Source: Anaerolineales bacterium (GTDB lineage: Bacteria > Chloroflexota > Anaerolineae > 4572-78 > J111). Taken from it: a stretch of DNA of 12,624 nucleotides. The stretch lies in the NCBI GenBank assembly GCA_012032575.1, contig JAAUSP010000180.1, positions 1 through 12,624 on the forward strand. The letters are read 5' to 3'. The stretch's first letter is position 1. Each line of letters opens with the position of its first letter. The notes under the pieces are model-generated. The model did not search any database and had not been told where the DNA came from. It was given only the letters and a program-made list of their open reading frames with translations. Below, piece by piece: positions 857 through 11,472 of the stretch. The position numbers were made by a program, and so were the translations under genes.

Positions 857-1318
857 ATGACCGAATCCAAATCAACCCTCACTCGCCGCGATGCGCTCAA
901 AACGCTGGCGGCTATCACCGGAGCCGTGACTCTATCCAGCCTGCCCAATCAATGGGAAAAACCGCTGGTAGAAGTAGGCGCGCTGCCGGCCCATGCCCAA
1001 ACTTCCGTTACTGGAGCGGTTCAAGTAATCAACAACACCGGTAATGCTATCCAGGTCAACATGTCAGGGCCGACCATTGACAATACCCAAACGATTGCCA
1101 ACGGAAGATCTTTCACCTGGAGTAATCTGCCGCCTGTCGTCGGGGTTGCGTCCGCCGTAGACGTAGAAAAAGTAAGTGAAGGGTATCACCTTGATTTTGG
1201 CGATTCTTTTAAAGTTAATCTGGATGGGCACGACGTTCCTTTTTGTACACCTGGCACGAGTTTTCCTCTGGAAGCCGGTGAACTCAGGACATATACGTTG
1301 ACTGAGTGCCCCAATTAA
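857..1318 (+). CDS. Tat-exported small protein with LPAHA-type leader, unknown function
   Basis: A 153-residue protein. Residues 8-15 (LTRRDALK) form a twin-arginine signal, followed by a hydrophobic stretch (about 16-29). A second segment at about 33-48 has the pattern W..PLVEVGALPAHAQ, with a likely signal-peptidase site at AHA/Q. The mature part (about 105 residues) is rich in N, T, V and G, looks like a beta-strand domain, and has two Cys near the C terminus (PFC and TECPN). The start ATG has a clean GGAGG nine bases upstream. It is the first gene after a strong promoter and overlaps or abuts the nucleotidyltransferase gene, with PqqD-like and HprK-like genes following. From this context it is a candidate substrate of those enzymes. 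That is inference; the sequence itself shows no known catalytic domain. Confidence 0.8.
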   Translation: MTESKSTLTRRDALKTLAAITGAVTLSSLPNQWEKPLVEVGALPAHAQTSVTGAVQVINNTGNAIQVNMSGPTIDNTQTIANGRSFTWSNLPPVVGVASAVDVEKVSEGYHLDFGDSFKVNLDGHDVPFCTPGTSFPLEAGELRTYTLTECPN

Positions 1319-1344
1319 TCCCTCTGCCAGGTGAGCCAACCGGG

Positions 1345-2499
1345 GTGATTAATCTACTGACGCGCTGCGCCGGGGTCGAGTTGACTCCGGCGCAGTTAAA
1401 TCAACTGGCGGCTCAGGCCGGTCAGCTCACTGACTGGGCGGCCCTGCCCGCCGCCGCCGAAGCCCAAAGCCTGGGACCGCTGGTGTATTATCACTTAAAA
1501 GCGGCCGGGGCAGCCTGGCCCACGCCGGTTAAACGGGACTTGCAAGGGCTGTATCTGCGGCATCGTCACGCCAACACGGTTAAACTGGTAGTTTTGGCAG
1601 AAATACTGGCCGCGTTTGAGGCGGCTGGAATTGAGGCGCTGGCACTCAAAGGGGCGGCGCTGGCGGCGCTCATCTACCCGGAACCGGGGCTGCGCCCCAT
1701 GCGCGATCTCGATGTGCTGGTGCGTCCGGCGCAGGTGCGACAAGCGCAAGGCGTGTTGGGTGAATTGGGGTTTAACGCGCCGCTGCCGCCTCCCGGCAGC
1801 CCGCTGCCCGATAAACATCTGGCGGTGGCGTCGCGCCAGCAAGAGGGCCTGACGGTCAGCGTGGAGGTCCACTATAATTTATTTGATGCCTTCCAGTCCG
1901 CTTCACTCACGCTGGATACCCTGACCGGGCCACCCCATCCCTTCAAGTTGAATGAATTCACCGCACACACGCTGGGTCACGAGGATATGCTCTGGCATTT
2001 GTGCCGGCATATCGCCTACCACGCCAGCATTTGGGAACCGATCCGGCTCATTTGGGTTGTTGACCTGGTGGGGTTTGCCGAGCGCTTTGTGGAGGAGATT
2101 GACTGGCCGCGCCTAGCCCGGCTTTATCCCCCGGTATTGAAGATGTTGTCATTGTTCCACTTTATCACCCCGGTTTCGGATCGGCTGCGCCAGCAGGCCG
2201 GGTTGAAGCTGGGCCGCGCTCCCCAGGGGGTTGGGTTGGAATTTGACGGCTGGCCGCGGCGGCGGGGAGCGCAATTGCAGGCGCAAAGCTGGTCGGAAAT
2301 CGCCCGCGCTACATTTTTTCCCTCAGAATGGTGGCTGCGGCTGCATTACGGGCTAGATTGCGTGCAGCCGCTGTTCTGGTACCGCTGGGTTCGCCATCCG
2401 CTGTATATTTTGGGGCCATTTTATTTGCTGGAAAAACTCAGGTTGTGGTGGTATTTGCGTGTGCGCCCACGTCTGAAAACAATCTCATCGGGAGTATAA
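1345..2499 (+). CDS. NTP_transf_5-type nucleotidyltransferase family protein
   Basis: About 384 residues from the GTG at 1345, which is preceded by AGGTGAG (1329-1335). An in-frame GTG at 1306 would overlap the previous gene by 13 bases and is possible but has poorer support. The diagnostic core is LKGAAL..LIYPEPGLRPMRDLDVLV, matching the uncharacterised nucleotidyltransferase family (Pfam NTP_transf_5): a KG motif, a conserved Arg and the acidic DLD that would bind metal. The rest is mostly helical with conserved Trp/His patches (e.g. HLCRHIAYH). Members of this family often sit beside PqqD-like and HprK-like genes, as here. The transferred group and the target are unknown. The C-terminal end is rich in aromatic and basic residues (WYRWVRHPLYILGPF) and could associate with membrane. 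The gene stops 7 bases before the PqqD-like start, so co-translation is likely. Confidence 0.82.
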   Translation: MINLLTRCAGVELTPAQLNQLAAQAGQLTDWAALPAAAEAQSLGPLVYYHLKAAGAAWPTPVKRDLQGLYLRHRHANTVKLVVLAEILAAFEAAGIEALALKGAALAALIYPEPGLRPMRDLDVLVRPAQVRQAQGVLGELGFNAPLPPPGSPLPDKHLAVASRQQEGLTVSVEVHYNLFDAFQSASLTLDTLTGPPHPFKLNEFTAHTLGHEDMLWHLCRHIAYHASIWEPIRLIWVVDLVGFAERFVEEIDWPRLARLYPPVLKMLSLFHFITPVSDRLRQQAGLKLGRAPQGVGLEFDGWPRRRGAQLQAQSWSEIARATFFPSEWWLRLHYGLDCVQPLFWYRWVRHPLYILGPFYLLEKLRLWWYLRVRPRLKTISSGV

Positions 2500-2506
2500 T
2501 CACTCC

Positions 2507-2806
2507 ATGGAACTATCGGCCAAACCCCGCCAAAAACCGGATTACCGGCTGGAAAAACTTGACGATGAATTACTTTTGTACCACCCCGGCCGCACCGCGA
2601 TTATGTACTGCAACACTACCGCTTCGCTCATTTGGCAGTTGTGCGATGGCCTGCGCACCGGACAAGAGATAGCCAATCTGCTCAGCACGGCCTACGAACA
2701 ACCCACCGCCGAAATGGCCGCGGCAGTGGCCGCTACCTTGGAGCAATTTTGCCGGCACGGCGCGATTGAACTGGACAGCCAATCCGCTCGCCAAAAATCC
2801 GGCTGA
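2507..2806 (+). CDS. PqqD family protein (RRE-like peptide-binding domain)
   Basis: 99 residues. The order of motifs is that of PqqD/RiPP recognition elements: an N-terminal strand region (YRLEKLDDELLLYHP), then N-T-T-A-S-L-IWQLCDG (about 35-47), then RTGQEIANLL (helix), and a final helix ending in the FCRHGAIEL pattern. PqqD-type domains bind leader peptides and deliver them to modifying enzymes. Stand-alone copies also occur in uncharacterised kinase/nucleotidyltransferase sets. It lies between the nucleotidyltransferase and the HprK-like kinase with tight spacing, so the three probably act together. No PqqE-like radical SAM enzyme is present, so a role in PQQ synthesis is not supported. 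Confidence 0.85.
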   Translation: MELSAKPRQKPDYRLEKLDDELLLYHPGRTAIMYCNTTASLIWQLCDGLRTGQEIANLLSTAYEQPTAEMAAAVAATLEQFCRHGAIELDSQSARQKSG

Positions 2807-2847
2807 AGCTGATTTCCCCTACGGCGTGTCCGTTTCACCATCCCCTT

Positions 2848-3709
2848 GTGAGGTATCACTTGCCAATCCGTTGGTTAACTTTTGGCGGCAGTACCCTGAC
2901 GATTGAATATGAAGGCGCAGAACCGGCCCGGTTGATAGATTTTTTATATGGGGAGATTCCCCCTGAGCCGGATGGGACGCCGCAACACACCTACCGTTTA
3001 ACCGAAACTGCCGGTCAGTTCGACCTGTACCGCGATGATAAACTCATCTGCAGCGACAAACAGGGGGCGTTGGTGGCCGACAGGCTGCAAGCCGAAACCT
3101 GTTACCGCCTGGCGGATCGCAGCCTGGGGGGATTGTTATTCCACGCCGGGGGAGTGGCGCGATTGGGGCAGGGCGTGCTGCTGCCCGGCACAATGGGCGC
3201 GGGCAAAACCACCCTGACCGCCTGGCTATTGAGCCAGGAATATGATTATCTAACCGATGAATTGGTGTTCATAGCGGATGGGCAAAGAACAATGCAGGGC
3301 TTTGCCCGCCCGCTCAATCTCAAGCCGCCCTATCAAACGGCCTTAGCCGGGCTGGTTGATTTTGAATCCGCTGAGGCGCAAATTCTGCCCGCCCACTCCA
3401 CCGACCTGGTTCCGCCGGTGCTGTTCAACCCCGTCAGCCGGTTGAGCCAGCCGCCGCTGCGGTTGATTATTTTTCCGCACTACCAGGCCGGGGGTCGAAT
3501 TTAGCCTGGCTCGCCTTTCCAAAGCCCAGGCCGGGCTGGCTTTGATGCAGTGTTTGATTAACGCCCGCAACCTGCCCGAACACGGTTTCCCGGAGATTGT
3601 CCGGCTGGCAGCACTGGCTCCCGCCTACAAAATCAGTTATGCCCACTTTGACCAAATCGGCGGGCAAATTGAGATGCTGCTGAACTCTAATCCGAGTTTA
3701 ATAACTTGA
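2848..3709 (+). CDS. HprK-related P-loop kinase (one frameshift)
   Basis: Starts with GTG at 2848; no clear Shine-Dalgarno is seen, so the start is uncertain. Residues 97-121 carry LLFHAGGV followed by GTMGAGKT, a Walker A loop. LTDELVF (about 135-141) matches the acidic metal/catalytic region of HprK-like kinases. The frame stops at 3504, but removing one G from the run at 3490-3494 restores a reading frame that continues (VEFSLARLSKAQAG...) to TGA at 3707-3709, giving about 286 residues. That is a normal length for HprK-related kinases. True HprK phosphorylates HPr in sugar regulation, but no HPr or PTS gene is here. The neighbours (NTP_transf_5, PqqD-like) point to the 'HprK-related kinase A' type, whose substrate is unknown. 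Its last 12 bases overlap the convergent amidohydrolase gene. Confidence 0.82.
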
Positions 3710-5683
3710 GCCTAAATCAATATAATCTACCTTCGATTGGTCTTCGCGTTGCACCCCCAATTTCTCCAACAACTCGCCAATTAATTCGGCTTTGCGCATG
3801 GCATCTTTGGCCGACCATGTCCGGCTTTTGATTTCCAGGTAAAAACTGTTTGCTTCCGGGGCGGAAAGTTGATCCAGGTTAATCGCCAGATCCGTTTCCT
3901 GGTAGATGATGTGCCAGCGCTGGCGGTGCTTCGATACCTCTCGCTCGGCGGCGGGTTTGAAATACTCCCGGTAAAAACGCAGGCTGTGGCTGGCCGAGGC
4001 GGTGTAGCGGGCGCGGGTCAGCACAATCGAGTTTTCAAACTCTTTTTCGCTGCTGGGTCCCATCAGGGTCACGGTATAAAAAGTTTCCTTTAACTCTCCG
4101 CGCTCGTCGCGCACTTCATCTTCGCGGAAGCGCAAACGCCCGGCCTCTTTGTCTTCAAAGAAAAAGTAGGTGTCGTATTGGTCGCGCACAGAACTGCGCT
4201 GGATTTCAATGCCTGCATCTTTTAGAATCGCGCCCACCTCGATCAATTCGGGCAGACGCGCCTTGACCTGGATTTCAAAGGTTTCCTGGGGCACAAAATC
4301 GGCGCTGATGGCCAGCAGCTTGGATAACAGGCTGCCTTCGCGGGCAATCAGGAAAGCGTCAATGCGGCGGGCAATCCGTTTGGCTTCGTCAATAATCTCG
4401 GCTTCGTCCAGGGTCAGCAGTTGGCGCTCGCGCATCAAAATTTTGCCCTCTACCAGCACATCGCGCACATCGGTAGATTTGGCCGCATAGACAAGCTGGG
4501 CGTAGATGGCCTCCGGGTCGCGGGCAAAATAGGGCAGTTGATGGGTGGCCCTGGCCGAAATAACGGCAATATCGGCCCGCTTGCCCGGCTCCAGCGAGCC
4601 GGTCAGGTGGCCGATGTGCAGAGCCTTGGCCCCCTCGCTGGTCGCCAAAGCCCAGGCGGTTTTGGCCGGCAGCAGGGTTGGGTCGCCAAAGACGCCTTTT
4701 GCAAAAGGCAGCCAGGCGAGTCTCCTCGAACATATCCAAATCGTTGTTGGAGGCCGGTCCGTCTGTCCCCAGGCCGACATGCAGGCCCAAATTGACCATT
4801 TTTGCACCGGCGCGACACCGCTGGCCAGCTTCAAATTGCTGCTGGGGCAGTGAGCCACTCCGGCCCCATAGTGGTGCAGCGTGCGCATCTCACCTTCGTC
4901 CACGTGGACGCAGTGGGCGGCGATCACTTTGGCCCTGAACAGGTCACACTGTTCCACCCAGGGGATCACCGGAACGCCATACTGCTGGCGGCTGCTATCC
5001 TGTTCCAGGGTTGTTTCGGCCAGATGGATGTGCAGCGGCACATCGTATTCGGTCGCCAGGGCGACGCTGTTGCGCAGCATATCGGGGGTGGCAGTGTAGG
5101 GAGCATGGGGTCCCACCGCCGGAATAATCAGCGGATGGCCGAGCCACTGCTCGATGAAGCGGCGGCAGTAATCCAGGCTTTCGTCGTAATTGGTCGCATC
5201 GGGGGAGGGGAATTTGAGAATAGTTTGGGCCAAAATAGCCCGCATGCCGGCTTCGGTAGTGGCGCGGGCCACTTCACTTTCGTGGTAATACATGTCGCAG
5301 AAGGTGGTCACGCCGGAGCGGATCATTTCGGCGCAGGCCAAAAGCGCCCCGGTGTAGCTGAAGTTGTGGTCCACAAACTCGCGTTCCACCGGCATCATGT
5401 AGCCGTACAGCCACACGTCCAGCCGCAAATCGTCGGCCAGCCCGCGCAGCAAGGTCATCGAGGCGTGGGTGTGGGCATTAATCAGGCCGGGGCTGATGAT
5501 GCAGTTATGGCAGTCAATAACGGCGGCGGCCTCAATAGCAGCTTCAAGTTCGACTGCCGGCCCGACGGCGCTGATGAGATTATCTTTGATGGCAACGGCG
5601 CCATCGGGGTAGAGGTGCATGGAATCATCCATGGTTACTACGTAACCATGGGTCAGTAAAATATCGGCTTGTTGTTGGGTCAT
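3698..5683 (-). CDS. Amidohydrolase/deaminase fused to a CYTH domain (two compensating frameshifts)
   Basis: 661 residues as read. Residues 1-445 form a metal-dependent amidohydrolase of the MtaD/TrzN/SsnA type: HTHASMTLLRG (the HxH motif, H71/H73), HIHLAET near 218, AHCVHVDE near 255 and LEPGKRADIAVI near 375. Such enzymes deaminate or dechlorinate purine- or triazine-like substrates; S-adenosylhomocysteine/methylthioadenosine deamination is the usual annotation. Residues about 469-640 form a CYTH (class IV cyclase/thiamine-triphosphatase) fold: FEIQVKAR, GRLRFRED, LTRARY, KHRQRW and FYLEIKSR. The catalytic GTDG segment is not in the main frame. Between about 4707 and 4798 the correct protein (GLGTDGPASNNDLDMFEE) is in another frame, implying one base lost in the T-run 4799-4803 and a further indel near 4703-4706. 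The domain fusion is independent of this error because both junctions return to the same frame. Confidence 0.85.
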   Translation of the reverse strand: MTQQQADILLTHGYVVTMDDSMHLYPDGAVAIKDNLISAVGPAVELEAAIEAAAVIDCHNCIISPGLINAHTHASMTLLRGLADDLRLDVWLYGYMMPVEREFVDHNFSYTGALLACAEMIRSGVTTFCDMYYHESEVARATTEAGMRAILAQTILKFPSPDATNYDESLDYCRRFIEQWLGHPLIIPAVGPHAPYTATPDMLRNSVALATEYDVPLHIHLAETTLEQDSSRQQYGVPVIPWVEQCDLFRAKVIAAHCVHVDEGEMRTLHHYGAGVAHCPSSNLKLASGVAPVQKWSIWACMSAWGQTDRPPTTIWICSRRLAWLPFAKGVFGDPTLLPAKTAWALATSEGAKALHIGHLTGSLEPGKRADIAVISARATHQLPYFARDPEAIYAQLVYAAKSTDVRDVLVEGKILMRERQLLTLDEAEIIDEAKRIARRIDAFLIAREGSLLSKLLAISADFVPQETFEIQVKARLPELIEVGAILKDAGIEIQRSSVRDQYDTYFFFEDKEAGRLRFREDEVRDERGELKETFYTVTLMGPSSEKEFENSIVLTRARYTASASHSLRFYREYFKPAAEREVSKHRQRWHIIYQETDLAINLDQLSAPEANSFYLEIKSRTWSAKDAMRKAELIGELLEKLGVQREDQSKVDYIDLGSSY

Positions 5684-5705
5684 TTAAGTTTCCCGTTTCA
5701 TAAAG

Positions 5706-5886
5706 ACCTTACAGGTTTTTGCGCAGCATACTTCACCATCTTTGCAGTGTTTTAATGGGACGCGGATTTTCGCGGATCGCACAGATTTTCGCTTATTTTT
5801 TAAAGCTTTATCCGTTCGATCCGTTCGATCCGCGTCCTATTTCTCTGGTTTTGTCAAAAGTGCAAACATAGTGATACCTGTAAGGT
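5706..5886. repeat. 181-bp palindromic element with 11-bp terminal inverted repeats
   Basis: The ends are ACCTTACAGGT (5706-5716) and ACCTGTAAGGT (5876-5886). Nested inside are GGACGCGGAT (5758-5767) and ATCCGCGTCC (5828-5837). The interior also has direct repeats: CGCGGAT twice on the left, and tandem ATCCGTTCG on the right (about 5810-5827). It fills most of the gap between two genes transcribed in the same direction and has no coding potential. It looks like a non-autonomous mobile or REP-type element. Confidence 0.75.
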
Positions 5887-5900
5887 TTGGATTAGCTGCT

Positions 5901-5936
5901 AAAAAACGAGCCAGGGCAAGAAGGGCCGCTGGCTCG
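5901..5936 (-). terminator. Rho-independent terminator of the DsbA-VKOR operon
   Basis: On the minus strand an 8-bp GC-rich stem, CGAGCCAG (5929-5936) with CTGGCTCG (5907-5914), closes a 14-nt loop and is followed at once by TTTTTT (complement of 5901-5906). It lies 48 bases past the stop of the acidic Cys-rich protein, the last gene of the operon. Confidence 0.85.
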
Positions 5937-5983
5937 GATAAACCGTTTTAGGTTAGGCTGGGGTAACTAAGCTAAAAATCGGC

Positions 5984-6268
5984 TTAGAGTCTCCAATCCC
6001 GGTCATCTTCTTCAGCTTCGATGTCGTCGTCGAGAAAGAGGTCCTCTTCGTCGTCCTCATCCCAGGCCAGTTCTTCATCTTCTTCGTCGTCGTCAATCAG
6101 TTCGTCGTCATCCCATTCCTCTTCGTCTTCACTCAGGTCCACCAAATCGTCCAATACCTCATAGGTCAGACAGCCCTCCTCTGGATCGTAGATAATCTCT
6201 TCGGAAGTGCAAATTTTGTCTTCCCAGAAGATACAATCGCTTGCCCGGCAAATAATTTTTGTAGCCAT
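5984..6268 (-). CDS. Small DUF1540-like Cys-rich protein with long acidic tail
   Basis: 94 residues. The first 37 contain four Cys in the pattern C-x4-C-x7-C-x12-C (CRASDC, KICTSEEI, EEGCLTYE). This matches DUF1540-like domains and suggests a small metal- or redox-active Cys site. The remaining ~55 residues are almost all D and E with a few hydrophobics (e.g. DDDELIDDDEEDEELAW), an unusually acidic, probably disordered tail. The ATG lies 2 bases after the VKOR stop, and the Shine-Dalgarno GAGGTAA is built from the last codons of VKOR, so the two are translationally coupled. The gene is followed by a strong terminator. It is presumably linked to the thiol-redox operon. No function is known to me. 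Confidence 0.8.
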   Translation of the reverse strand: MATKIICRASDCIFWEDKICTSEEIIYDPEEGCLTYEVLDDLVDLSEDEEEWDDDELIDDDEEDEELAWDEDDEEDLFLDDDIEAEEDDRDWRL

Positions 6269-6270
6269 GA

Positions 6271-6759
6271 TTACCTCGCGGTATAGTAAGATTGATTATT
6301 GCGTAAATTAATAATTGATAAAATAAAAATGGCGACCATTATAATTGCCGAGGCGACGCACCAACGGCAGATCGCAAAAATAACAAATAACTCGATGTAG
6401 GTTAAGTAGGCCGAATATATCACCCCGGCCAGCGAAACCCCGAATATGGACAGGGCTACATACGGAACCCAACCTCGATCACTGACAATCGGCTGCCCTT
6501 GTGAGACCAGCAAAACCAGCAGGACAGCATACGAAACCAGCCCCCAAACCGGCAGCGGAATCCCGGCCAAATTGGCATAGGCACTGTTTTTGACCGTTTC
6601 ACAGCCACTCGAAGCGCCACATGATAAAGTAGCGCCGGGTACGGTGTAGCCCCACATCAGGTAGCCTGAAACACCTAACCCGGCAACGGTCAGGATAAAC
6701 ATGCAAAAAGCCAACCAATTAAAGCTGCTTAATTTCAAACGAGCTACCAGCGTACTCAT
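6271..6759 (-). CDS. Vitamin K epoxide reductase (VKOR) family membrane oxidoreductase
   Basis: 162 residues with four hydrophobic helices (about 14-35, 72-87, 99-120 and 124-150). Bacterial VKOR homologues reoxidise DsbA-like partners and pass electrons to quinone, replacing DsbB. The four conserved Cys are present: the loop pair C47 and C53 (SCGASSGCETV) and the active-site CRWC (C131-C134) in the last helix. KNSAYANLAGIPLPVWG after the loop pair is the conserved Ser/Pro segment of the family. The start ATG overlaps the stop of the DsbA-like gene (ATGA), and the partner gene directly upstream makes the enzyme/partner pairing convincing. There is no fused thioredoxin domain; here the partner is encoded separately. 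Confidence 0.92.
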   Translation of the reverse strand: MSTLVARLKLSSFNWLAFCMFILTVAGLGVSGYLMWGYTVPGATLSCGASSGCETVKNSAYANLAGIPLPVWGLVSYAVLLVLLVSQGQPIVSDRGWVPYVALSIFGVSLAGVIYSAYLTYIELFVIFAICRWCVASAIIMVAIFILSIINLRNNQSYYTAR

Positions 6760-7433
6760 TGGGCTTTAGTCAACTCCTGATCAATTACCTGTTTGAACTC
6801 TTCATACGACACATTGCCCTGGATGCGCTGTGCGTTAACAAAGAACGTCGGCGTTGACGTGACCCCCCGATTAAAAGCAGCCTGGCGGGCATTCTCCACA
6901 TCCGCCCGATGGGTTCCATTGGACAAACATTGGCTCAGAGCGCTTTGATCCAGGCCGGTGCGGCCCGCCAGGTCGGCCAGATTGGTTGCGTTCCAGCCTG
7001 TGCCTTGATTTTCATACAGGGCATGTTGATACTCAAAGAACTTGTTTTGATCCGCCGCGCACCAGGCTGCTTCAGCGGCCAAAGCAATTTCCGGGCTGCC
7101 CAGATTGAAAGAATGAACGACAAATTTTATTTTTCCAGTTTCGATGTACTCTGCTTCCAGCAGAGGAAATTTCTCGAGCACAAAGTCTCGACAATGCGGT
7201 CAGCCATAATCCGAGTATTCCACCATTGTTACCGAGGCATCGGGGCTGCCTTTGGTGGGAAACATACTAAGATCAACATTGCCGCTAGGCTGATTGTTCA
7301 TATTTCCCAGGGCAATCAGTCCGCCAACGATCAAGACGGCGGCAGCCACCACAATCCCGATCATTAAAGGGGAGATGGTTGCTGATCCAACCGGCTTCTT
7401 TGAACTGCTTGTACGACTTCTGGTTTTGGTCAA
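6756..7433 (-). CDS. Membrane-anchored DsbA-like thioredoxin, candidate selenoprotein (UPHC; in-frame TGA at 7200-7202)
   Basis: 225 residues if TGA is read as selenocysteine. Start is TTG at 7433: an in-frame TAA lies just upstream and GAGGG is 8 bases before it. Residues 21-44 are a single membrane anchor, and the catalytic domain would face outside. VEYSDYG is followed by U78-P-H-C81, exactly where DsbA/BdbD proteins have CxxC. The reading frame continues without any shift through RDFVLEKFPLLE, and the cis-Pro loop TSTPTFFVN is at about 192-200. A second Cys pair (C125, C169) matches BdbD-like relatives. Translation stopped at TGA would give only the anchor. The gene overlaps VKOR by ATGA. 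Alternatives are a nonsense mutation or a base-call error. The exact placement at the nucleophilic Cys, and a frame intact on both sides, favour recoding. Sec machinery (selA, selB, selC) is not in this window. Confidence 0.82.
7149..7191 (-). promoter_or_regulatory. Candidate bacterial SECIS region downstream of the TGA
   Basis: Read on the minus strand, three alternative folds are possible. The first is UCGAG/CUCGA (7187-7191 with 7174-7178, 8-nt loop). The second is a perfect 6-bp CUCUGC/GCAGAG stem (7160-7165 with 7149-7154) with loop UGGAA, whose loop begins 40 nt after the UGA. The third is an imperfect stem whose GAG/CUC and UUU/AAA pairs leave a loop starting with G about 18 nt after the UGA, which best fits the spacing I recall for bacterial SECIS elements. 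I cannot fold it here. Confidence 0.4.
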
Positions 7434-7581
7434 TTAATTATCCCTCACTCAAGTGACAGAGCGGCAGGGTACACCCCGTAGCAGTTGTTGCAGAAGCACC
7501 TTCAACTTACAACATTGCAACTTTGCGACCCTGTTCCCTTGCCTCTGAAATTTTCATGCAAAGTTTAGTCAATTTGGATGG

Positions 7582-8859
7582 TCAGTCAAGTATCCAAACT
7601 TCAACTGTGGCTCCGGTGGGTAGCTGCGTGATATGTTCTGGCACTACCACCAGGCCATTCGCCCAGACCATCGAAGTTAAAATGCCCGAACCTTGAACCT
7701 GCACCCCGCTGCCGCGAGTGGTCACATGGTAGCCGTCCGGCTCCAGGTGGACCAGACCACGCATGTAGTGCCGCCGTCCACTGTTTTCAATGGCTTCGTC
7801 CAGACAAGCCCGAACGCTGGTTTTAGCGTAAGAGTGCTGCCCACCCAGCTTCAAAATAGCCGGGCGAGCAAAAACCTCAAATGCTACCATCGCTGCCACC
7901 GGATTCCCCGGCAACCCAATCAACGGCACACCCTGACCCGCTGGGCGATGCAGCACCCCAAAAGCCAGGGGTTTACCCGGCTTAATAGCGACCTGCCAGA
8001 ACTGCATCTCACCTTCAGCCGCCAGGACCTTTTTAACCATATCAAAATCGCCCACCGACACCCCGGCGGAGGTCAAAAACAGGTCTACATTTTGGGCCAG
8101 ACCCGTCTGGATTTTAGCAGTCAAATCTTCAACCGTGTCGCGGGCAATGCCCAGCCTCACCGCTTCGCCGCCATATTTTTCCACCATCGCCGCCTGGGTA
8201 TAGCCATTGGAGTTGCGAATTTGACCCGGCTTGATGGGATCAGCCACATCTACCAACTCGTCACCGGTAGCCAGAACCGCCACCCGTGGCCGCCGGTACA
8301 CCTGAACTTCGGCCTGACCGATAGCAGCCAGCACGCCCACATCCTGAGGCCGCAGACGATGCCCCGGCTCCAGAATGGTCTGGCCAACCTTGATGTCTTC
8401 CCCGGCAGGTCGCACATTATCCCCGGCGGCGGCGGCTTGATAAATGAGTACCTCGTCTTCGGCCACAGGGGAAGCATTGGGAAAATGTTCGCTGGTTTCC
8501 TCAAAGCGAATGACCGCATCGGCCCCCTCCGGCAGCGGTGCGCCGGTCATAATCCGAATCGCTGTCTGGGGAGCCAACTTTTTGATCGGCGTTGCGCCCG
8601 CCGGAACGTTGTCAATCACAGTCAACTGAACCGGATTTTCTCGGCTGGCATCGGCGCAGTCAGCCGCCATAACGGCATAGCCATCCATGGCCGAATTGGC
8701 AAAGGGCGGCACACTTACCGGGGCCATCACGGTTTGGGCCAAAACACGATTGAAACTTTGGTTTAAGGGCACAACTTCCGCTTCAACAGGGGCAATCTTT
8801 GCTAAAATGAGGCCGAGCGCCTCCTCAACTGCAATAAGTGAGTTGTTTTGAACTCTCAT
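7582..8859 (-). CDS. moeA: Molybdopterin molybdenumtransferase MoeA
   Basis: 425 residues from the ATG at 8857-8859. The frame is open 34 codons further upstream, but that part (ILRFNLFTILTSW...) is not MoeA-like and contains the promoter. MoeA inserts molybdate into adenylylated molybdopterin, the last step of molybdenum cofactor synthesis. Family motifs in order: PPFANSAMDGYAV (51-63), RIMTGAPLPEGADAVIRFE (about 105-123), RPAGEDI, LATGDELV (about 197), TSAGVSVGDFDMVKKVL, KPGKPLAFG and GLPGNPVAA, then the short C-terminal domain ending VEVWILD. Length is normal and no frameshift is seen. It lies 148 bases upstream of the DsbA-like gene on the same strand, so co-transcription is possible. No other moa/mob genes are in the window. 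Confidence 0.95.
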   Translation of the reverse strand: MRVQNNSLIAVEEALGLILAKIAPVEAEVVPLNQSFNRVLAQTVMAPVSVPPFANSAMDGYAVMAADCADASRENPVQLTVIDNVPAGATPIKKLAPQTAIRIMTGAPLPEGADAVIRFEETSEHFPNASPVAEDEVLIYQAAAAGDNVRPAGEDIKVGQTILEPGHRLRPQDVGVLAAIGQAEVQVYRRPRVAVLATGDELVDVADPIKPGQIRNSNGYTQAAMVEKYGGEAVRLGIARDTVEDLTAKIQTGLAQNVDLFLTSAGVSVGDFDMVKKVLAAEGEMQFWQVAIKPGKPLAFGVLHRPAGQGVPLIGLPGNPVAAMVAFEVFARPAILKLGGQHSYAKTSVRACLDEAIENSGRRHYMRGLVHLEPDGYHVTTRGSGVQVQGSGILTSMVWANGLVVVPEHITQLPTGATVEVWILD

Positions 8860-8868
8860 AGCTCTAGT

Positions 8869-8877
8869 ATTATACCA
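8869..8877 (-). promoter_or_regulatory. Extended -10 promoter (TGGTATAAT) of moeA
   Basis: Minus-strand TG-G-TATAAT ends 9 bases before the moeA ATG. The transcript would start about 3 bases before the ATG, so the mRNA is predicted to be almost leaderless. No Shine-Dalgarno and no good -35 box are present, as is common with extended -10 promoters. Confidence 0.6.
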
Positions 8878-8973
8878 AGAGGTTAAAATTGTAAATAGGT
8901 TGAACCTTAAAATTTTTTCTGCCGTATTTTCAGGCCGAAAAAGCCAAGAATTTTTCATCAACCTGGCGTAAAT

Positions 8974-10282: not shown

Positions 10283-11472
10283 CTAAACGATGCCCTGCTC
10301 ACGAAACTGAGTAATAGTGGCTTTATTGTAGCCTAACTCAACCAGCACTTCGTTGGTATGCTGGCCCAAAGTGGGCGGAGCCAGGCGGTAGCTCACCGGC
10401 GTAGCCGAGAGATTGACCGGATTGCCCATAGATTTGACCACGCCCACCAGCGGATGCTCCAACTCGACAATAAAATGGCGCGCCCGGTGCTGGGGATGGC
10501 CAGCGTATCGGCAATGGTATTGATTGGGCCATTCGGAATGCCGGTATCTTTGAGCTTCTCCAGCCAATAGTCAGCCGTTTGGGTCGAGAACACTTCATCC
10601 AGAATAGGGATCAACTCGGCCCGGTTTTTGGCCCGGTCTCGATTGGTGGCAAAGCGCGGGTCGGCTTTCAAGTGCTCCAAGCCCAGCGCCCCACAAAAAG
10701 CCTGCCACAGTTTTTCGGTCCCAACCGTCAAAATAATATATTTATCCTTCGCCCGAAAAACCTGGTAGGGTACAATATTGGGATGCAAATTACCCAGCCG
10801 CTGCGGCTCATGCCCCCCGTTGAGCAGCGCCGAAGCCAGCATCGTCAGCCAGGCCGATTGGCTTTCCATCAGGGTCATATCCAGGGCCTGTCCCTGGCCC
10901 GTGCGCTCACGATTGAACAGCGCCGCCAGAATACCGATGGTCGAATACAGGCCGGTGGTAATATCAGCAATGGGGATGGGATAGCGCATGGGTTCGCCGT
11001 CAGGTTCGCCGGTCACGCTCATCAGGCCGGCTTCGCCCTGGGCAATCAGATCATAACCGGGGCGCTCGGCATAGGGGCCGGTGCTGCCGTAACCGCTGAT
11101 CAGGCAGTAAATCAAACGCGGGTTCAACGCTTGCAAGGTGGCGACATCCACCCCGGCCCGCTGGCGTGACGACTCCTTGGGAATATTGCAGACAAATACA
11201 TCGGCGCTGGTGACGAGTTGATGCAGTACTTGCCGTCCCTCCGGTGATTTGATATCCAGGGTCAAGCTGCGTTTGTTGCGATTGATACTCAAATAGTAGG
11301 TGCTCTCACCCTCGATAAAAGGCGGCCCCCAGCCCCGGCTCTGGTCGCCCACCCCCGGCGTCTCGACTTTAATGACATCCGCGCCCATATCCCCCAACAA
11401 CATGGTGCAGTAAGGACCGGCCAGCGCCTGGGTGACATCAATCACCCGAATATTGTCTAAAAGAGTTGTCAT
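10283..11472 (-). CDS. CaiB/BaiF (class III) CoA-transferase family protein (one frameshift)
   Basis: About 396 residues when joined across a frameshift. Class III CoA-transferases move CoA between carboxylic acids through an aspartyl-CoA thioester. Motifs: LLDNIRVIDVTQALAGPYCTMLLGDMGADVIKVE (N-terminal family signature), NRNKRSLTLDIKSPEGR, SGYGSTGPYAERPGYDLIAQ (D141 in GYDLIAQ is the likely catalytic Asp), and GLYSTIGILAALFNRERTGQGQ. The frame read from the start ends at 10393 in a nonsense tail. Adding one base in the G-run 10492-10495 joins it to the correct C terminus (PQHRARHFIVELEHPL...REQGIV) ending at 10283. GAGG lies 6 bases before the ATG. The acyl group cannot be predicted from sequence. 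No acyl-CoA dehydrogenase or racemase neighbour is present. Confidence 0.9.

Follow-up and report, generated by a model that had tools for sequence, protein, structure and literature searches.

The gene at 6756..7433 on the minus strand of the window (the whole 12,624-nucleotide stretch of DNA from an Anaerolineales bacterium analyzed here) very probably encodes a DsbA-like protein with selenocysteine (Sec) at its catalytic residue 78; judging from sequence, we put the probability of this reading at about 0.94. The gene comprises 225 codons and a TGA stop, and its predicted product is a membrane-anchored selenoprotein. One further in-frame TGA (7200..7202, minus strand; codon 7202-7200), the proposed Sec codon, occupies the nucleophile position of the C-x-x-C motif in the context ...EYSDYG-U-PHC-RDF... 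and is the sole internal stop. The original prediction had pointed to a frame open on both sides of this lone TGA and to its placement exactly at the first residue of the CxxC motif. That observation is confirmed, with Cys homologues aligning at residue 78, and its interpretation as a selenoprotein gene is supported.

We propose that SelB and Sec-tRNA would read this TGA as Sec, guided by a GG-loop hairpin that lies 40-41 nt further on in the coding sequence, and that the TGA ending the same gene would act as an ordinary stop. Sec insertion at residue 78 would give an exported, N-terminally anchored thiol oxidoreductase in which U78 and C81 would form a selenylsulfide outside the membrane, to be passed to substrates as a disulfide. 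From what is known of the family, the VKOR protein encoded by the overlapping next gene would reoxidize the Sec DsbA. The oxidase and VKOR steps are less sure than the Sec reading. Gene finders read a Sec codon as a stop and so shorten the protein, and related bacteria have either a selenium or a sulfur version of it.

The gene and its TGA codon across relatives

Translation of the plus strand over 6756-7433 gives a different protein; the DsbA-like frame lies on the minus strand, which the original prediction left unstated. It opens with TTG (7433-7431, minus) behind a GAGGGA-like ribosome binding site at 7446-7441, a start type shared with two related TGA genes, L001 (TTG and GAGGGA) and L004 (TTG and GAGGAG). 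The protein begins with a basic tail, followed by a hydrophobic helix (residues 22-45); a short linker then leads to the DsbA-like thioredoxin domain, in which the UPHC redox motif (residues 78-81; 7191..7202, minus) sits at the N-terminal end of the first long helix, predicted at residues 79-97. The terminator TGA (6756..6758, minus) overlaps, as ATGA, the start of a gene for a 162-residue VKOR-family membrane protein (6271..6759, minus). Upstream lies a MoeA/Glp-like molybdotransferase gene, identified by profile match (7582..8961, minus), which also adjoins the gene in many relatives. Across the window, Rfam gave six matches to unrelated families, none reaching the gathering score.

A protein search returned 294 relatives; the best 120 were examined, and one of these is the window's own fragment, leaving 119. 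All 53 full-length proteins among these best 119 of 294 have Cys at both residues 78 and 81. The other 66 lack residue 78, and 58 of them start at residue 85 or 89. These late starts look like gene callers restarting past a stop, and we assign the Sec state to the fragments from their start positions, not from DNA codons. This clade of selenoproteins is apparently stored in protein databases largely as N-terminally truncated fragments without the active site.

At the DNA level, codon 78 is TGC or TGT at 78 of the best 80 loci of a scan of named genomes and TGA at two (L001 and L004). The first of these, in Anaerolineales bacterium H5_CFX7 (G001), is the closest copy among named genomes, with 75% protein identity to the window gene. 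A search through 396 genomes of the class of G001 found a relative in 31 (E up to 1e-35), with a Cys codon at 24 of 30 loci and TGA in seven genes from six genomes, every one at codon 78. These seven (L001, L103, L104, L004, L107, L142 and L108) form a clade with the window gene. All six TGA genomes fall in one order, of which 25 genomes were searched; five others of the order have the Cys form, and 14 gave no match at E up to 1e-45. L107 and L142 are two TGA copies in one genome (G165:C117), on a single contig but on opposite strands, with about 21 kb between them.

Sampling was extended to 400 genomes of the phylum, 66 of which have a relative at E up to 1e-28, with codon 78 read in part of these. 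Sixteen of 25 loci carry a Cys codon and nine carry TGA, the nine being six new genes (one counted twice) and two repeats of the clade. Seven genomes of this sample have TGA, always at codon 78: G001 together with G496, G587, G573, G699, G468 and G552. The weaker cases are G468, in which a simple scan found no bSECIS-like hairpin, G587, in which the hairpin lies only 6-8 nt from the TGA, and G552; the genes of G468 and G552 contain a second stop (TAG). Two more distant DsbA-like genes with TGA, L196 and L198 (in G496 and G573), have an ordinary-looking bSECIS hairpin, CGCCCTG-GGTC-CAGGGCG, 24 nt downstream. A plasmid search gave no match, and the single relative found on viral contigs is partial, with residue 78 outside the matched part.

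In total, TGA stands at the same codon in 13 other genes from 12 genomes. Both kinds of relative that the original prediction had named as potential support, Cys homologues aligned at U78 (53 of 53 full-length proteins) and further homologues with TGA at that codon, are present, and its argument that a chance stop here is unlikely is borne out by seven genes in six genomes of one order and by six more genomes of the phylum.

Candidate SECIS hairpin and Sec machinery

The proposed SECIS core is the hairpin CTCTGC-TGGAA-GCAGAG at 7149..7165 (minus), with GG in its apical loop and the loop 40-41 nt after the TGA. A 6-bp stem with a TGGNN loop at this distance occurs in all eight TGA genes of the clade (the window gene and the seven others), and all 48 cells of the core stem pair. 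The outermost pair, which varies among C-G, G-C and A-U, is the only covarying pair of the hairpin. At least one covarying pair was reached by 371 of 500 shuffled controls; the observed share of paired cells and the covariation score were reached by only 2 of 500. The 58 nt past the TGA fold moderately better than shuffled sequence (z -1.75, with 11 of 200 shuffles as good). A possible first hairpin, TCGAG...CTCGA, lies between the TGA and the core (7173..7192, minus); its five-pair core is found in five of the eight TGA genes, the other three fold differently, and 77.1% of its cells are paired. We considered this hairpin nearest the TGA as the SECIS and rejected it in favor of the second (7149-7165), because the first two positions of its loop lack G and three of the eight TGA genes do not keep it.

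The bSECIS model, as given in the sections of a 2026 review used here, has a stem of 4-16 bp, a loop of 3-9 nt, G in the first two loop positions, a spacing of 16-37 nt from UGA to apical loop, and an MFE of -7.5 kcal/mol or less (PMC13188914). The window hairpin falls within this model in stem, loop and loop G, and folded alone its 17 nt reach -8.3 kcal/mol, within the energy limit; four of five hairpins folded alone reach -7.5 kcal/mol, and that of L104 misses it at -6.8. The likeness to the consensus in those sections extends to the window's stem of 6-7 bp and to a loop of 3-5 nt with an N-G-G-N-N pattern (PMC13188914). The spacing, however, is 40-41 nt in all eight TGA genes of the clade as against 16-37 nt, and an extra hairpin of one kind intervenes in five of the eight. 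Such a long distance between UGA and hairpin tests how far the bSECIS model on which gene finders rely can be stretched. G001 also has an ordinary bSECIS, since its selD itself contains one TGA, followed at 32 nt by a hairpin whose loop reads GGTTC.

Because the hairpin sits in coding DNA, the peptide that it encodes would be fixed. The motif LLxA[D/E] (residues 91-95) is present in all 59 fragments that cover it, a count that leaves out seven of the 66 fragments because they start later, as against 3 of the 53 Cys proteins among the best 119 of 294 relatives (Fisher 1e-28, relatedness ignored). Where the window gene and L001 share a residue, they also use the same codon at 17 of 18 positions within residues 78-96, versus 82 of 151 elsewhere. 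The hairpin is absent from four of five close Cys homologues and present in the fifth, L100 (in G003), which has TGC at codon 78. A model of the hairpin region scores L100 at 67.1 bits versus 18-23 bits for three other Cys genes. Run over 25 genomes with at most 150 candidates scored in each, it returned the seven TGA genes, a recovery that follows by construction from its having been built on them, and the apparent Cys relic L100; nothing further appeared at E up to 0.01.

The genome of the closest named copy, G001, contains selA (585 bits), selB (328 bits, with neighbors in frame), selD (365 bits) and a tRNA-SeC with anticodon tca. Among the six TGA genomes of the order, whose completeness is unstated, selA was found in all six (the G109 match is a fragment that scores under the cut-off) and selB above the cut-off in four; selB did not pass it in G165 or in G194, where a short partial match covers the C-terminal part. 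A tRNA-Sec was found in two of the six and not in G194, G109, G004 or G165, which, with completeness unstated, does not imply absence. A weak tRNA-Sec match in G004 was discarded, as it falls on a tRNA-Ser. Of five genomes searched for selD, G001, G002 and G003 pass the cut-off and G004 (a TGA genome) and G005 do not.

Fold, possible redox partner and competing explanations

With Cys put at position 78, the protein matches the Pfam profiles Thioredoxin_4 (129.6 bits, residues 61-218) and DSBA (51.7 bits, residues 70-217) above their gathering scores, and both matches span the TGA. Its AlphaFold model (pLDDT 89.7) has a DsbA fold, with BdbD of Bacillus subtilis as the best-ranked solved structure (3eu4, TM 0.84 by target length) and DsbA/TsdA of Corynebacterium diphtheriae also among the best-ranked; both are oxidases. 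By the model, the window protein shares the fold of these two CxxC thiol-disulfide oxidoreductases and differs from them in its motif, which has a proposed Sec where theirs has Cys. In the model, U78 immediately precedes helix 79-97, and T194-P195 immediately precedes strand 196-199.

The original prediction had also named a membrane anchor and a cis-Pro. A helix is predicted at residues 22-45 (7299..7370, minus) and is taken as the anchor, with moderate pLDDT in the model. Thr194-Pro195 (6849..6854, minus) sits at the position of the cis-Pro loop of DsbA and thioredoxin folds and is invariant in two alignments; the cis geometry itself is known from DsbA structures. C125 and C169 are likewise invariant in two alignments and may form a second, structural disulfide, as a double-cysteine mutant of Wolbachia DsbA1 suggests.

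The protein of the overlapping gene matches the Pfam VKOR profile with 91.2 bits, has its loop and active-site cysteine pairs (CGASSGC and CRWC) and is a possible redox partner. VKOR proteins oxidize DsbA-like partners, and the locus resembles known bacterial DsbA-VKOR pairs in that the DsbA-like gene overlaps a VKOR gene having both cysteine pairs; unlike in those pairs, the DsbA partner here would bear Sec. A VKOR match adjoins the gene in the window and at L001, L103 and L004, and is also seen in loci of Cys relatives that are more distant. No VKOR match came from the loci of L104, L107, L108 or L142, and the frame lists beside L104, L107 and L108 show no obvious VKOR frame. With VKOR adjoining three of seven other TGA genes and two of five close Cys homologues, DsbA-VKOR pairing is common but not tied to Sec. 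The original prediction of a VKOR-coupled Sec DsbA is qualified to that extent. Behind the VKOR gene, a small acidic protein (5984-6268, minus) has no Pfam match, and its relatives lie behind dsbA(-VKOR) genes in other genomes.

The TGA could instead be a true stop by chance or a product of mis-sequencing, the outcome of nonsense mutation, gene decay or assembly error. The window sequence is perhaps not error-free, since the neighboring amidohydrolase (by eye) and CoA-transferase genes show apparent frameshifts. Yet 13 other genes from 12 genomes have TGA at this codon, the window gene has no other internal stop, the region past the TGA is constrained both as protein and as RNA, and the window and L001 share an uninterrupted 59-nt identity running from codon 74 through the TGA to codon 93. 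As L001 comes from a separate assembly and has 75% protein identity, that identity makes a local base error very unlikely, and we give chance or error very little credence. We give as little to a split gene, in which translation ends at the TGA and a second start, close to residue 85 or 89, yields the C-terminal part on its own. The databases predict 66 of the 119 best relatives in this way, and the window gene has a GTG at residue 85; but a fragment without residues 1-84 would have neither the anchor nor the opening strands (60-62, 68-74) nor any of the redox motif, each of the 53 full-length Cys homologues is a single chain, and His80-Cys81, between the TGA and the internal start, is kept in all eight TGA genes of the clade, needlessly if the gene were split. 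Genome-wide reassignment of TGA to an ordinary codon, such as Trp or Gly, is more improbable still: we found no point in its support, the same gene terminates with TGA, TGA pairs with Cys at one site only in the loci read, and G001 has a tRNA-SeC (tca).

Compatible with Sec at residue 78 is a different role, in which the enzyme would be mainly a reductase, an isomerase or a peroxide-defense thiol enzyme and VKOR a mere neighbor. Such a role would fit the incomplete association with VKOR among TGA genes and close Cys homologues, and the nearest named family, NF041057, is named just thioredoxin-like. Against it stand the overlap of the VKOR gene with the stop codon of the DsbA-like gene, the known oxidation of DsbA-like partners by VKOR proteins and the known oxidase activity of the best-ranked structures from Bacillus and Corynebacterium. 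We regard a non-oxidase role as unlikely, at a level that still deserves attention, and retain the anchored Sec oxidase as our preferred reading.

Known families and Sec/Cys exchange

UxxC selenoproteins of this general kind are already on record. The sections of the 2026 review used here list both DsbA-like and DsbG-like UxxC families; its Table 1 enters NF041057 as 'DsbG-like protein' with UxxC, and a DsbA-like protein form 1 with PF01323, UxxC and the representative NIP15863.1 (PMC13188914). In the parts of earlier work drawn on here, a DsbA-like UxxC family was reported as new in the Sargasso Sea metagenome (PMC1088965), a table of a 2016 survey has a row for DsbA-like selenoproteins with the values 41 and 45 (PMC5029168), and a 2006 survey gives three selenoprotein families in Chloroflexi (PMC1794560). 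The window protein resembles DsbA-like form 1 in having a DSBA domain (PF01323) and UxxC, a likeness by domain and motif. Its best NCBIfam match is NF041057 (Rcas_1661 family thioredoxin-like (seleno)lipoprotein), at 147.0 bits versus a cut-off of 190, which all seven relatives tested (six TGA, one Cys) also miss, at 126.6-151.9 bits. The name Rcas_1661 presumably refers to a locus tag of Roseiflexus castenholzii, a member of the Chloroflexota. Common to this family and the window protein is a thioredoxin-like domain with Sec or Cys; unlike a lipoprotein, as the family name has it, the window protein has a predicted membrane helix and no Cys before residue 78, and with it no lipobox Cys.

The main text of the review makes no mention of VKOR, Chloroflexota or Anaerolineae (PMC13188914). 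In the open-licence literature, searched by title or abstract opening, we found no description of this Chloroflexota clade of DsbA-like selenoproteins, and no paper on VKOR with a selenocysteine DsbA or on VKOR with DsbA in Chloroflexi. The protein had been called new or little described, which is right only in part: the sections of the review used here already contain UxxC DsbA-like selenoproteins (PMC13188914), and NCBIfam the related NF041057. What appears new is the clade itself, its SECIS spacing outside the range of 16-37 nt, the locus moeA-dsbA-VKOR and the switching between Sec and Cys, parts on which we found nothing in the literature searched; the chemistry is already known.

A tree of residues 97-224 (132 rows, quick method) is poorly resolved; the Sec/Cys states need 14 changes on it, of which well supported branches force three. 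An independent-pairs test gave mostly two for, none against and one tie (p 0.5), with too few pairs and little power. L100 belongs to a supported six-row group, whose other members are its own database copy and four fragment (Sec) proteins, a placement that fits a recent Sec-to-Cys change. This TGC homologue (1882-1947, minus, in G003; record JAFGNV010000097.1, L003) keeps the complete hairpin region, apparently a relic SECIS left after such a change, and its protein is one of the three Cys proteins with LLxA[D/E]. Two Cys proteins with LLDAE, P0036 and P0046, may, by protein sequence alone, be further relic cases.

A second mode of exchange is suggested by L101 (G280:C4), compared with the window over 5100-8961. 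The neighbors of G280 are nearer to the window than those of L001, in MoeA (89% vs 78% identity), in VKOR (83% vs 78%) and in the DNA behind MoeA/VKOR (90.2% over 601 bases vs 82.9% over 1971), whereas the DsbA between them is a distant Cys form (56% vs 75%). This pattern suggests whole-gene replacement of dsbA at a fixed locus, and Sec and Cys versions of the gene probably replaced one another more than once in this lineage. TGA genes, Cys genes and one or more Cys genes that still have the hairpin form a natural series, which makes the direction and frequency of Sec/Cys exchange testable.

Joined together, these elements would describe a Chloroflexota order with a disulfide pathway in which an anchored Sec DsbA is reoxidized by VKOR, a distinct SECIS class whose GG-loop hairpin, 40-41 nt from the UGA, is drawn nearer by the first hairpin, and a locus that toggles between Sec and Cys by point change, leaving a relic SECIS, and by whole-gene replacement. 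We offer this combined picture tentatively, at somewhat below even odds.

Other parts of the window merit brief description. The amidohydrolase-CYTH frame (3698-5683, minus) has an apparent frameshift pair near 4690-4800, judged by eye, and an overlapping frame at 4389-4799 seems, also by eye, to hold sequence like that of its family. The gene for a family III CoA-transferase (10283-11472, minus) has an apparent frameshift near 10485-10500, and its two pieces match consecutive parts of the PF02515 profile. On the plus strand, 857-3504 encodes an NTP_transf_5 nucleotidyltransferase, a PqqD protein, a small protein with a twin-arginine-like start (by eye) and a frame with no Pfam match that contains a GAGKT motif (by eye), a gene set that resembles a peptide-modification cluster.
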